The notes below the pieces were generated by a model that was not told the DNA's origin, did not search any database, and saw only the letters and a list, made by a program, of their open reading frames with translations. 43,803 nt of DNA from Ruminococcus sp. (GTDB lineage: Bacteria > Bacillota > Clostridia > Oscillospirales > Ruminococcaceae), in assembly GCA_017478965.1 (NCBI GenBank), contig JAFVCV010000022.1, forward strand, positions 1 to 43,803. Reading direction: 5' to 3'. This document shows, piece after piece, positions 35,976 through 39,732 of the stretch. Numbering within the stretch: position 1 is the first letter of the stretch; each line of letters starts with the position of its first letter. The position numbers were made by a program, and so were the translations under genes.

Positions 35976-36004
35976 TTGAAAAAATGTAAACAGAATGTTA
36001 TAAT
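35976..36004 (+). promoter_or_regulatory. Promoter of the five-gene VWA/PurA-like operon
   Basis: TTGAAA (35976-35981) and TATAAT (35999-36004) are spaced 17 bp apart. The leader to the first start at 36088 is about 78 nt. Confidence 0.85.
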
Positions 36005-36087: not shown

Positions 36088-36390
36088 ATGGACGGAGAAT
36101 ATGCTGGACTTATCATAATGGGTTCTATAGTGGGCGTCATCGTGCTGATACTTCTGATAGCGCTTTTTGCAAATATCGCTACAGTTATAAAGTATAAGAG
36201 AAAGCCCCAGCAGCAGGGGCAGTTCGACGGCTATTCATGGCAGCCTGAGAACAGCAGTCTTGACAGCGCCCAGGCACAGGCTGTGCAGGGCTTTGAACAG
36301 GCAGCGAATGGGAGCTTTTCGCAGCAGCAGGCCGGCGATGATCTCAAGCAGGCGGCTGATCTTTCAGGCTTTGATGACAGCCCGCTCTGA
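36088..36390 (+). CDS. Small single-pass membrane protein, first gene of the VWA operon
   Basis: The 100-aa protein has one membrane segment (about residues 7-32, LIIMGSIVGVIVLILLIALFA), a short basic stop-transfer (KYKRK) and a Gln/Ser/Asp-rich, probably disordered tail with QAQAVQGFEQAA. No family is recognised. ATG 36088 has GGAGG 7 nt upstream; the in-frame ATG at 36070 sits before that site. It ends 23 nt before the next gene. It may anchor the soluble operon products at the membrane, which is inference from topology. Confidence 0.7.
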   Translation: MDGEYAGLIIMGSIVGVIVLILLIALFANIATVIKYKRKPQQQGQFDGYSWQPENSSLDSAQAQAVQGFEQAANGSFSQQQAGDDLKQAADLSGFDDSPL

Positions 36391-36413
36391 GATGCTGAGG
36401 AAGGAATGAAAAA

Positions 36414-37316
36414 ATGCTGAATTTTAAATGCCGCAACTGCGGCGGAGAGATGTCGGTGGACCGCAGGGGAGATCTGCTTTGCAGCTACTGCGATTCCAGG
36501 TTCGTGTTCACTGACAGGGACCTGAAGGATTATAAGGAATTCAGGTATAAGATGCTGTACTATCTCAGCGCAGTGGCTAATAAGACCGCCGCCGACAGCG
36601 ATGCCGAGAGGATATGGGAGAGTGCAGAGGGAGAGCAGTTCGAGACGGCCGACGGCACAGACATAGTGATAAACCATATCTATATGGGCAGATATGACGG
36701 GGTGGAGATCTATACTGCAAGAAACAGCGTGGTATTCGTTTTTCCCTCAGGCTGTCCGGGACTGGCTGACAGGTTCGGGAACTCGCTGAAGTGTCTCAGC
36801 TATCCCTCGGCGGACGTAAGGGATCTTTCGCAGTATTTTCCGCACATTACCGGGCAGTTCACCCTGAAGGACGGGAGAATGATGCTCGCTGTCTCCAAGC
36901 CGGAAAACGTGTTCCCGCTTGGGGCTTTCGGCAGCCTTCCGCCGGTCCATGCGGCCTGGATAACTTCCAGGCTTGAAAATCTGTGCTGTGTGCTGGAATA
37001 CAGCGGCGTAATGCACGGAGGGATAGACCTGGAGAGCCTGTTCATCAACGCCGGGACCCATGAGCTTTATCTCCTGGGAGGATGGTGGAAGAGCAGAACG
37101 GAAAGAGGAGTCAGCGATCTTCATATGGTGAGGAATACCGTGAAAAAGCTGATGGGCAGGTATCTTTCGCAGGCGCCGGGGGAATACCGGCGGTTTCTTG
37201 ACAGCGTCACCGCAAAGGACGCTTATGACGATTTCGCACAGTGGGACCAGGTCATACAGAAAGGTTTCGGCGGACGCAGGTTCGAGAAACTTGACCTGAC
37301 TGATATCAAAATTTGA
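36414..37316 (+). CDS. Zinc-ribbon protein with degenerate kinase-like domain
   Basis: The 300-aa protein starts with a zinc ribbon (C6, C9, C23, C26: FKCRNCGG and LLCSYCDS). The remainder (about 75-300) resembles the back half of a protein-kinase fold: MHGGIDLESLFINAGTHELYLLGGWW occupies the place of the HRD catalytic loop and DFG segment, followed by an HMVRNTVKKLMG helix and FLDSV..KDAYDDFAQWDQV. The catalytic aspartate is glycine (HGG), DFG is GGW, and no P-loop or VAIK lysine is visible, so it is most likely a pseudokinase. It starts 23 nt after the small membrane protein and ends 14 nt before the VWA gene. The kinase relationship is by motif recognition. Confidence 0.65.
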   Translation: MLNFKCRNCGGEMSVDRRGDLLCSYCDSRFVFTDRDLKDYKEFRYKMLYYLSAVANKTAADSDAERIWESAEGEQFETADGTDIVINHIYMGRYDGVEIYTARNSVVFVFPSGCPGLADRFGNSLKCLSYPSADVRDLSQYFPHITGQFTLKDGRMMLAVSKPENVFPLGAFGSLPPVHAAWITSRLENLCCVLEYSGVMHGGIDLESLFINAGTHELYLLGGWWKSRTERGVSDLHMVRNTVKKLMGRYLSQAPGEYRRFLDSVTAKDAYDDFAQWDQVIQKGFGGRRFEKLDLTDIKI

Positions 37317-37330
37317 AAGGAAGATGAAAT

Positions 37331-38221
37331 ATGGGCAGCGGCAGCTATACTAGCGCAGACTGGGCCAAGCTCAGGAGCAGCGCCAAGATCACAGAAAGAT
37401 CTAACGACAGGGATATTTTTAAGAAAAGGGAGATGGACCAGCGGTTCGACCCTAAGTACATAAACGTCCGTGAGGCCAGGGACGGCGACGACCACCCTGA
37501 GTCTACGCCTATTATAATAGGACTGGACGTTACTGGGTCTATGGGCTATCTTGCGGCGCAGATCGCCAAGGAGGGTCTTAATGAGACTATGATGAAGCTG
37601 TTTTCTACCAAGCCCGTCACCGACCCGCAGATAATGTTTGCCGCACTGGGGGACGTGGTGGACAGCGCACCTCTTCAGGTCACTCAGTTCGAGTCGGACA
37701 TCAGGATAGCAGAGCAGCTGATGGACCTGTGGCTGGAGGGCCGTGGCGGCGACAATCCTGAGGACTATAACCTTCTCTGGTATTTTGCCGCAAAGCACAC
37801 CAGCACTGACTGCTTTGAAAAGAGAGGCAAGAAGGGTTATATCTTTACCATAGGCGATGCCGACTGCCACCGGAGCATTACGGGAGACAGCTTCAGAAAG
37901 GTCTTTGGTGAAAAGGAGGACGAGCTGACCCTGAAACAGACCGCTGAGATGGCTAAGGAAAAATATGAGCTTTTCCATATCCATATCAGTAATCACAGAG
38001 ACGACAGACCGAGTCTGCTTGGCAGCGTTATCCCCGGACGTATCATAACTGTTGAAAAGGCCTATGTGGATACGATACCTGAGCTTATCGTCGGTGCTCT
38101 CCTTCTGGCAGGGGGACAGAGCATGAAACAGGTGGTGAGCAACTGGCCTGAACACAGTGAGCTGGTGCAGAGATCTCTTAGCGGACTGGTAATGAACAAT
38201 TCCGGCAGCATAGTATTCTGA
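37331..38221 (+). CDS. von Willebrand factor A (VWA) domain protein
   Basis: The 296-aa soluble protein has a VWA domain from about residue 58. The metal-ion-dependent adhesion site has D66, T68 and S70 (IIIGLDVTGSMGY, the DxTxS variant) with further MIDAS residues expected in the GRGGDNPEDY region (about 137-146). The N-terminal 55 residues are charged (TERSNDRDIFKKREMDQRFDPK). Intracellular VWA proteins act as metal-dependent assembly platforms, often paired with kinases, phosphatases or AAA+ ATPases. No signal peptide is present. GAAAGGAAG precedes the ATG, and the stop overlaps the next start by 1 nt (TGATG). Confidence 0.87.
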   Translation: MGSGSYTSADWAKLRSSAKITERSNDRDIFKKREMDQRFDPKYINVREARDGDDHPESTPIIIGLDVTGSMGYLAAQIAKEGLNETMMKLFSTKPVTDPQIMFAALGDVVDSAPLQVTQFESDIRIAEQLMDLWLEGRGGDNPEDYNLLWYFAAKHTSTDCFEKRGKKGYIFTIGDADCHRSITGDSFRKVFGEKEDELTLKQTAEMAKEKYELFHIHISNHRDDRPSLLGSVIPGRIITVEKAYVDTIPELIVGALLLAGGQSMKQVVSNWPEHSELVQRSLSGLVMNNSGSIVF

Positions 38222-39405
38222 TGCAGGAGGTCTTTGCAGTGATAGGGGCTTGTTTTGGTGACGAGGGCAAGGGTCTGGTCACCGACAGCCTTTGTATCGG
38301 CAGCGGCAGGACTGCTGTGGTAAGGCATAACGGCGGCGCCCAGGCGGGGCATACGGTGGAGGATGGGGGCAGGAGGTTCGTTTTCCATCAGCTCGGCTCC
38401 GGGTCTTTTCACGGTGCGGATACGGTCTGGGCCGATAGCTTTATGCCGGACCTTTTCAAACTCAGCGGTGAGCTGGAGGAGTTCACCAGTCTTTCTGGCC
38501 GGGAACCGAGGGTGTTGGCCTTCCCGGATACCTGTCCCACGCTCATAGACGATGTGCTTATCAATATGGCCCTGGAGAACTCACGGGGCAGCAGCCGTCA
38601 CGGCAGCTGCGGCATGGGCATAAACGAGGCCGATAACCGTATTTCAGCCGGGTACGGGATAACTCTCGGACAGATGAAGGGCTGCACCCTGGGGAGCCTT
38701 GAGAGACGAATGAGAGAGATAAGAAGTGCATATGTGCCCGGAAGGCTGAAAAAACTCGGGCTGGAGCCGGACAGGCTGGGGGAATACGGCGAGATGCTAT
38801 GTGACCCGGAGATCATCGGCCGTGCCGCACTGAACATGATGAGAGGACTTGAAAAAGTCAGCATCATCGAGGGCAAAGAGCCGCTCAGCGGCTACAGCAG
38901 GATAGTTTTTGAGGGCGCTCAGGGGCTGCTGCTGGATTCTATGAACAAGGAGTTCGCCCCTCATGTGACGGCGTCAAGGACCGGGCTGGATATGCCCCTG
39001 AGATCCTGTGAAAAGATCGGGGCAAAGCTTGGCACAGCAGTCTATGTCATTCGCAGCTATGTGACCCGGCACGGGGCAGGACCGCTGCCCGGTGAATGCG
39101 GCAAAAGTCTGTTGGGAGATATAGGCGACGATCTGACCAACCAGCCCAATCCCTGGCAGGGGACCATAAGATATGCCCCTCACCAAGCTGCGGAGAGCTT
39201 GCTCAAAGCAGTAAAGAAGGACCTTGACCGGGAGCACAGACCGGCGGCATGGCTGGCCGTGACCCATCTTAACGAGACCGGGAACATGGTCAGGTCCGTC
39301 GCAGGCGATATGAGCTTTGAGGAGCTTTGTGCCGACAGCAGGTTCGCAGGAGTTTTTGAGAGGGTGGTCCCTTTCTATTCGGGGCGCAGCGAAAGATTAG
39401 TGTGA
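38221..39405 (+). CDS. Divergent adenylosuccinate synthetase homologue (PurA/PurZ-like)
   Basis: The 394-aa enzyme of the adenylosuccinate synthetase superfamily keeps the N-terminal catalytic motifs: GDEGKG (13-18) with D14, and NGGAQAGHTV with H44. FEGAQGLLLD (230-239), VTASRT (249-254) and TRHGAGPLPGE (282-292) are also recognisable. It departs from housekeeping PurA at substrate-determining places: RHGSCGMGINE (126-136) in place of the usual TGRGIGP loop, NPWQGTIRYAP (310-320) where PurA has its RR.GW motif, and THLNET (348-353) where PurA has the guanine-reading TKLD. These variants recall archaeal and phage PurZ-type members. Expected chemistry is ligation of aspartate to a purine nucleotide; the substrate is unknown. 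There is no Shine-Dalgarno, so translation is coupled to the VWA gene. Confidence 0.85.
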   Translation: MQEVFAVIGACFGDEGKGLVTDSLCIGSGRTAVVRHNGGAQAGHTVEDGGRRFVFHQLGSGSFHGADTVWADSFMPDLFKLSGELEEFTSLSGREPRVLAFPDTCPTLIDDVLINMALENSRGSSRHGSCGMGINEADNRISAGYGITLGQMKGCTLGSLERRMREIRSAYVPGRLKKLGLEPDRLGEYGEMLCDPEIIGRAALNMMRGLEKVSIIEGKEPLSGYSRIVFEGAQGLLLDSMNKEFAPHVTASRTGLDMPLRSCEKIGAKLGTAVYVIRSYVTRHGAGPLPGECGKSLLGDIGDDLTNQPNPWQGTIRYAPHQAAESLLKAVKKDLDREHRPAAWLAVTHLNETGNMVRSVAGDMSFEELCADSRFAGVFERVVPFYSGRSERLV

Positions 39406-39421
39406 TATCAAGGAGAAGACC

Positions 39422-39649
39422 ATGATCTGTCCATACTGCAACAAGGAAATGAAAAAAGGCATACTTTCCGGTGACGGCAGGAGCGCTGTTACCTGGAAGG
39501 AGGGGGACAAGAAGGCCGGCTTTTACGACAAGCTGGGTCTGGCAGGATATACAGTCACAGCGGTCAGGCGGACCCTGGCGGCTTTTACTGTTGAGAGCTA
39601 TTTTTGTCCTGAGTGCAAAAAAATGATCTTTGACACAGACGTAAAATAA
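39422..39649 (+). CDS. Small zinc-ribbon protein, last gene of the VWA operon
   Basis: The 75-aa protein has a split zinc ribbon: C3 and C6 (ICPYCNKEMKKG) at the N-terminus and C62 and C65 (FCPECKKMIFD) at the C-terminus. This resembles the DUF6487-type proteins of Clostridia (PYCG.EM..G..). Function is unknown. AAGGAG lies 7 nt before the ATG, 16 nt after the PurA-like gene, so it belongs to the same operon. It is followed by a strong terminator. Confidence 0.75.
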   Translation: MICPYCNKEMKKGILSGDGRSAVTWKEGDKKAGFYDKLGLAGYTVTAVRRTLAAFTVESYFCPECKKMIFDTDVK

Positions 39650-39664
39650 ATACCCGATAACACT

Positions 39665-39732
39665 GCCCGCAGTATCAGGTGATGCGCAGCCTTTGTCAGG
39701 TGATAGTATCACCAAATACTGCGGGCTTTTTT
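39665..39732 (+). terminator. Long terminator of the VWA operon
   Basis: The outer stem GCCCGCAGTAT/ATACTGCGGGC (39665-39675 with 39716-39726) is followed by six T residues. The roughly 40-nt loop holds a second hairpin, GGTGAT/ATCACC, and a direct repeat of TCAGGTGAT. Confidence 0.88.

Follow-up and report, generated by a model that had tools for sequence, protein, structure and literature searches.

Why does a homologue of the adenylosuccinate synthetase PurA share an operon with a VWA protein and a kinase-like protein in a Ruminococcus? The question is raised by positions 36088-39649 of a stretch of 43,803 nucleotides (hereafter the window) of contig JAFVCV010000022.1, which belongs to the 2.69 Mb assembly GCA_017478965.1 of Ruminococcus sp. 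Five open reading frames (ORFs) lie there on the plus strand with intergenic gaps of 23, 14, -1 and 16 nt (genes 1 to 5, Table 1). Tight spacing, together with one good candidate promoter and a strong hairpin terminator, confirms that the operon, as described in a first-pass annotation of this DNA, is real. The conserved unit is restricted to the middle three genes, which travel together. This gene set is widespread in large phages, plasmids and gut bacteria and seemingly without a described function, since no description of it was found in open-access full texts (subscription papers and preprints were outside the scope). Our reading, which we put forward tentatively, is that the module forms a stress- or infection-responsive purine-type N-ligase complex linked to nicotinamide adenine dinucleotide (NAD) and ADP-ribose, with a docking and an adaptor subunit, which phages use and have exchanged with bacteria time and again.

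The three-gene core

Pattern scans of bacterial contigs for the VWA protein gave at least 544 relatives and those of viral contigs 342, and the best 80 of each were kept. Adding 6 viral contigs found earlier, 4 loci from genomes and 4 named phages gives 174 loci with 167 distinct VWA proteins; the named phages were fetched via the PurA-like gene and the other 170 loci via the VWA gene. Because loci were found by similarity to the window's VWA protein, the set leans to relatives of the window and misses distant ones. The window's own locus and short copies of it (L001, L002 and L007-L011 in our numbering) were excluded before counting, two places are counted twice (L018/L022 and L021/L093), and many of the viral contigs derive from metagenomes and could contain bacterial DNA that was assigned wrongly. 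Among the matches listed, the named sequences nearest to the VWA protein come from rumen Ruminococcus and Clostridia metagenome-assembled genomes.

A PurA-like gene follows the VWA gene on the same strand at 167 of the 174 loci (163/170 among those found via VWA). At 159 loci it lies within 1.5 kb, at 3 more the two overlap through over-long ORF calls, and at 5 viral loci it is found 1.6-2.6 kb downstream. The seven remaining loci either lack the gene (L044, L108, L128) or are situated at contig ends (L045, L090, L151, L181). The median gap between the two genes is 15 nt and 50 of 163 pairs overlap, while no VWA-PurA fusion protein was found among the surveyed loci. The kinase-like gene stands beside VWA at 116/174 loci, upstream, with a median start at about 1 kb; it is present at 76 of 84 bacterial loci, in 39 of 86 viral contigs and in one of the four named phages. 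Pairwise distances correlate with r of 0.80-0.90 (102 loci, uncorrected for shared ancestry). Homologues of genes 2 to 4 thus do co-occur in other genomes. Since no other locus among 181 holds a homologue of gene 1 or gene 5, the five-gene unit is a local form of this three-gene core: the recurring set that the first-pass annotation had envisaged stands for genes 2 to 4 and falls for the whole five, and the membrane platform suggested there is not upheld, gene 1 being unconserved elsewhere.

SPFH/Band 7 genes adjoin two of the loci without a PurA-like gene, L108:7293-8360 (by Pfam) and L128:3822-4697 (by eye).

The PurA-like enzyme

The homology of gene 4 to adenylosuccinate synthetase is borne out by a PF00709 match of 112.7 bits in the Pfam scan of the window proteins. 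It is not the sole purA of the organism, a possibility which we rejected because the genome holds a separate purA elsewhere, with a full-length match of 539 bits vs 111 for gene 4.

The residues of the active site were counted over 167 PurA-like ORFs without preselection. An earlier count had preselected proteins of 300-480 amino acids with a G[DE]x[GA]KG match, which could favour Asp13, and the recount left the Asp13 result unchanged. In common with canonical PurA the family has the fold (by homology) and the catalytic positions: Asp13, Lys16 and His41 are kept in all 166 filled rows (one row is truncated), Gln224 in 161/161, and position 239 is Thr or Ser in 161/161. It differs from canonical PurA around the substrate, where Asn38 is replaced by Gln in 163/166, Thr129 by Cys in 147/165, Val273 by His in 160/160 and Lys331 mostly by His or Cys, and where Arg143 is kept in just 5 of 157 rows. 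The aspartate loop TTGRxR was found in none of 163 proteins and an N..N..Q motif replaces it in 134 of them. The columns were taken from MAFFT alignments, and in these the row of the genome's own PurA is visibly misplaced at several positions. According to the available part of the description of S-2L PurZ, its base pocket is lined by Asn, Thr, Gln and Val (PMC8342488), which we take as the equivalents of positions 38, 129, 224 and 273.

In our trees PurA, PurZ and the PurA-like module family form three clades with supports of 96, 99 and 98, and then of 96, 100 and 100 (Shimodaira-Hasegawa-like approximate likelihood ratio test, quick search, few outgroup rows, i.e. 6 PurA and 5 PurZ, and no archaeal PurA). 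Judged by these alignments and trees, the module enzyme is a third clade of the superfamily, neither PurA nor PurZ. PurZ and PurZ0, the 2-amino-adenylosuccinate synthetases of Z-genome phages, share with it the superfamily, carriage by phages and, in the rows aligned, the absence of the TTGRxR loop. However, PurZ has a Ser at the Asp13 position, without exception among the 147 phage members that the accessible portion of one study counts (PMC12884076) and in all 5 PurZ rows of our alignment, and it stands in a clade of its own, whereas the module enzyme keeps Asp together with Gln38, Cys129 and His273. For this reason the PurZ-like identity given to gene 4 in the first-pass annotation was rejected. 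The same portion of that study counts 481 viral PF00709 homologues and describes the 151 of the PurZ group (PMC12884076). The best PHROG of gene 4 is phrog_1211 (4.2e-47), named 2-aminooxy adenylosuccinate synthetase.

Because the catalytic residues are intact, the PurA-like subunit may keep PurA chemistry on another substrate, i.e. phosphorylation of a lactam oxygen (for example a purine 6-oxo group) driven by a nucleoside triphosphate (NTP), and then displacement by an amine. The substrate would be other than inosine monophosphate and the amine site would be changed. Since this branch of the superfamily, the third, combines intact catalytic residues with an altered pocket, it makes new purine chemistry directly testable.

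The VWA protein and its upstream partner

Neither gene 2 nor gene 3 has a Pfam match above the cut-off, a VWA match included, but the predicted structure of gene 3 is an integrin-like VWA fold, as the first-pass annotation had claimed. An MG start is found in 163 of the 174 VWA proteins and in 15/15 of an earlier count, an invariance which is partly a matter of choice because starts were picked by script to fit the MG motif. As the VWA protein is a near-invariant, near-obligate partner, it may serve as an integrin-like Mg2+ docking fold that presents a ligand, a protein or a peptide. Two VWA ORFs of this family were seen side by side at 25 bacterial loci (L063, L064, L067-L069 and L072-L074, and also L076-L091 and L094).

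The structural model of gene 2 (predicted local distance difference test score 90.5) has protein kinases as its Foldseek and VIA matches, while the HRD/DFG catalytic residues are absent in gene 2 and in most of 40 aligned family members. The zinc ribbon and degenerate kinase proposed for this gene are upheld. A few members keep HxD, and gp265 of phage Pleione scores as Pkinase with 35.6 bits. The HPD motif of a J-domain is present in 41 of 112 kinase-like proteins. The upstream protein is mostly a pseudokinase with a J-domain or, in the window, a zinc ribbon, and it looks like an interchangeable adaptor. In the phage and J-type bacterial forms the J-domain may recruit Hsp70, and in the lineage of the window it would have been replaced by the zinc ribbon. 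A phage-encoded J-domain is also present in Rki, the J-protein of phage RB43, as far as the available part of its report goes (PMC3486835); unlike Rki, a likeness by description and not by sequence, the module J-domain is joined to a pseudokinase within an operon.

Two other phage gene families occupy the kinase-like slot, at 15 and 7 loci, and never alongside it. One carries a VVWD[LIM]M motif and precedes the VWA gene in phages (15 loci, L003:3252-3965 among them), with no Pfam match for the two members scanned. The other is a small family with an RNNK motif (L016:5630-6001 and 6 other loci) which mostly overlaps the VWA start by one base.

Distribution and mobility

The module is carried by Mycobacterium, Rhizobium and Vibrio phages, by plasmids of Alpha- and Betaproteobacteria and Actinomycetes, and by rumen Clostridia. 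A tblastn search of 50,697 phage records gave 206 matches to the VWA protein and 220 to the PurA-like protein, the latter search also collecting other PurA homologues: Mycobacterium accounts for 188 and 189 of them, respectively (with separate counting of RefSeq and GenBank copies), Rhizobium for 10 and 10 and Vibrio for 6 and 6. The organism counts hold only Mycobacterium, Rhizobium, Vibrio, Bacteriophage and Mycolicibacterium and not one Kuttervirus-host name. By description only, the gene lists of Vi01-like (Kuttervirus) phages name adenylosuccinate synthase and VWA proteins in the part available (PMC10892097). A passage on the C1 mycobacteriophage Pinkcreek places a Ser/Thr kinase and a PurA-like synthetase among subcluster-unique conserved genes, and that passage does not link the two (PMC9476963).

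Bacterial and viral members are mixed in the tree, with 8 parsimony changes of which at least 4-5 are forced by well supported branches. Because of this mixing the module seems, as far as the tree can tell, to have crossed between phages and bacteria on several occasions. We rejected the idea of a gene general to the phylum, as the module was found in one of 199 evenly drawn genomes of the phylum (the window's own) and in 5 of 61 genomes of the set of relatives, own included. Two further explanations for the bacterial loci were rejected using their neighbours, 119 proteins (127 minus 8, the near-copies L035 and L091 being dropped) from 34 of 50 loci with enough flank. Against a defence island, PADLOC assigned these neighbours to 62 families, and the commonest of the first 25 of them holds 4 proteins; the five window proteins gave a single weak PADLOC match, gene 5 at 0.037. 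Against a prophage origin, no phage family is present among the first 25 of 146 neighbour Pfam families. The dnaJ, prmA and RNA-methyltransferase families are represented by 3 of the 119 neighbours each, possibly from one lineage.

NrtR and NUDIX neighbours

At 9 of 80 bacterial loci the module has an NrtR/NUDIX gene no more than 1.5 kb away. Five of them are among the 6 loci with an HPD motif, and with the hand-typed J loci L095 and L101 the J-type bacterial loci that have such a gene number 7 of 8; five J-type loci are close Ruminococcus relatives. The other two are L100 and L046, the latter within the zinc-ribbon clade, with its kinase gene found late and left untyped. The VWA gene is also carried by 21 plasmid records, of which 9 were fetched (two of the nine, Agrobacterium and Allorhizobium, are near relatives): kinase-like and PurA-like genes are present at 8 each and an adjoining NUDIX gene at 7. 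On the Rhodovulum plasmid (L208) the NrtR, kinase-like and VWA genes are present and the PurA-like gene was not found. NrtR is divergent and upstream at the Ruminococcus, Agrobacterium, Allorhizobium, Rhizobium, Rhodovulum, Acetobacter (split) and Competibacteraceae loci, while in Rhodococcus and Tsukamurella a plain NUDIX gene lies directly downstream. By Pfam together with homology an NrtR domain was recognised at 12 loci.

These neighbours suggest control of the module by ADP-ribose in its J-type relatives. The NrtR of M. smegmatis is an inactive, ADP-ribose-binding regulator according to the part of its report available (PMC6800001). One strict full catalytic pattern, compared with 15 of the NUDIX proteins found here, is present in none of them, L095 and L046 coming close. 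At the genome level NrtR domains occur in 12 of the 61 relative genomes, 4 of 5 with the module vs 8 of 56 without it (Fisher p 0.004, but 0.054 within the genus), so that the association is weak. The sequence TGTTATTATC is common to five Ruminococcus intergenic regions, and in two of these it belongs to a complete 19-nt palindrome; as the five are close relatives, the evidence is weak. Among 150 viral neighbours there are 5 NUDIX, 3 cytidylyltransferase-like and 2 NADAR proteins, counts given without a large-phage background. NADAR genes lie near the phage module at L003:2233-2889 (Pfam), L134:9060-9611 and L123:9153-9752 (both by homology). The NADAR and NMNAT-NUDIX genes near phage loci are, without such a background comparison, at most suggestive.

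Because an NrtR/NUDIX gene flanks J-type bacterial and plasmid loci, stress that acts on NAD or ADP-ribose may switch the module on at these loci. With their NrtR neighbours the related loci direct attention to NAD/ADP-ribose, a current front of the conflict between phages and bacteria.

Possible function

Several observations weigh against the ligase complex proposed above. The module is without known activity, and the PurA-like protein could be an NTPase only, its ligase activity lost. A kinase-like gene was not found at 58 of the 174 loci, of which 9 are cut by contig ends, 20 have another family instead and 29 have neither. None of 59 zinc-ribbon-type loci (at 11 of which the flank is shorter than 1 kb on at least one side) has an NrtR/NUDIX gene, and a NUDIX match within 1.5 kb was obtained in just one of 86 viral contigs. 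Since the window has no adjoining NrtR/NUDIX gene, the NrtR link reaches it only through its relatives; its genome gave no NrtR match at all. A bolder form of the proposal, which we regard as improbable, is that the VWA and PurA-like proteins form one composite active site joining an activated purine to a protein or peptide amine in a phage-host conflict over NAD. The metal site of VWA would then bind an acidic residue or peptide in the place where free aspartate sat before the aspartate loop was lost, the activated purine might come for example from an NAD- or ADP-ribose-derived nucleotide, and the outcome would be protein modification or its repair.

The module could also be a chaperone or remodelling device in which the PurA-like protein is a nucleotide-driven switch for VWA and adaptor on modified or misfolded proteins, with no ligation, an explanation that we find doubtful. 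It would be in accordance with the J-domain motif and the VWA fold, and with the NrtR-regulated ADP-ribose systems in which VWA is called a peptide-binding chaperone (PMC9503650). For these NrtR/WYL-regulated, ARG-centred systems a logic of NrtR with a VWA chaperone against viral ADP-ribosylation has been proposed (PMC9503650). They resemble the module in combining an NrtR-type Nudix protein with VWA, in the J-type relatives only and not in the window; they differ in that ARG was not recognised at module loci among the first 25 families of each neighbour scan, and adenylosuccinate, PurA, DnaJ, J-domain and pseudokinase are all absent from the main text of that article. The base-activation residues Asp13, His41 and Gln224 are, however, without exception in filled rows, which is seemingly beyond the needs of a switch. 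Synthesis of a modified nucleotide for phage DNA or as a signal, in the manner of PurZ and with a product that would serve bacteria as an alarm metabolite, is in our opinion unlikely. Carriage by phages, the name of the best PHROG and the NUDIX and NMNAT-type neighbours, which handle nucleotides, all speak for it, but the family keeps the Asp that PurZ has exchanged for Ser and forms a separate clade. No polymerase, datZ or mazZ was recognised among recurrent neighbours (partial lists, one by eye), nor datZ, mazZ or dpoZ in the recurrent clusters or the first 25 of 53 Pfam families of the viral neighbours, with no dedicated search made. Besides, PurZ is not known to need a VWA partner.

The first-pass annotation had compared the operon to TerY-type triads. 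A VWA protein, a kinase fold and a zinc ribbon in one operon are indeed shared with TerY-P triads as the available part of their description has them (PMC11090510), but in the module the catalytic kinase residues are mostly lost, a PurA-like enzyme is present and no recurrent third partner was recognised: no gene family, read by eye and with no PP2C model run, recurs in the place of the PP2C phosphatase. A phosphorylation or metal-sensing switch of that kind with a PurA-like enzyme added is therefore very improbable. That gene 4 is a spare purA copy in an unrelated operon is hardly credible, as its PF00709 match is set against a full-length purA elsewhere in the genome, a distinct clade and pocket, and conserved partner genes. 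Taken as a whole, the earlier interpretation is partly supported.

Layout of the operon and minor observations

Table 1. Features of the operon and its borders in the window.
Feature	Position	Strand	Basis
Promoter-like site, TTGAAA-17-TATAAT, extended -10	35976..36004	+	sequence
Gene 1, 100-aa protein with hydrophobic stretch at N-terminus; local addition	36088..36390	+	
Gene 2 (core), N-terminal zinc ribbon (CxxC...CxxC) and predicted pseudokinase fold	36414..37316	+	
Gene 3 (core), VWA / integrin beta-I-like protein, MG N-terminus, MIDAS motif DVTGS	37331..38221	+	
Gene 4 (core), PurA-like enzyme, apparent third clade; start overlaps gene 3 stop	38221..39405	+	
Gene 5, DUF6487 zinc-ribbon protein; local addition	39422..39649	+	PF20097 65.9 bits
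Intrinsic terminator hairpin, then T run; directly after gene 5	39665..39726	+	

Among 26 genomes of the phylum, seven (G066, G067, G069, G070, G072, G076 and G080, 93-100% complete) had no PF00709 match and are apparently without PurA. In Vibrio phage Va1 a TROVE (Ro60-like) protein is encoded near the module (L003:8384-9892).

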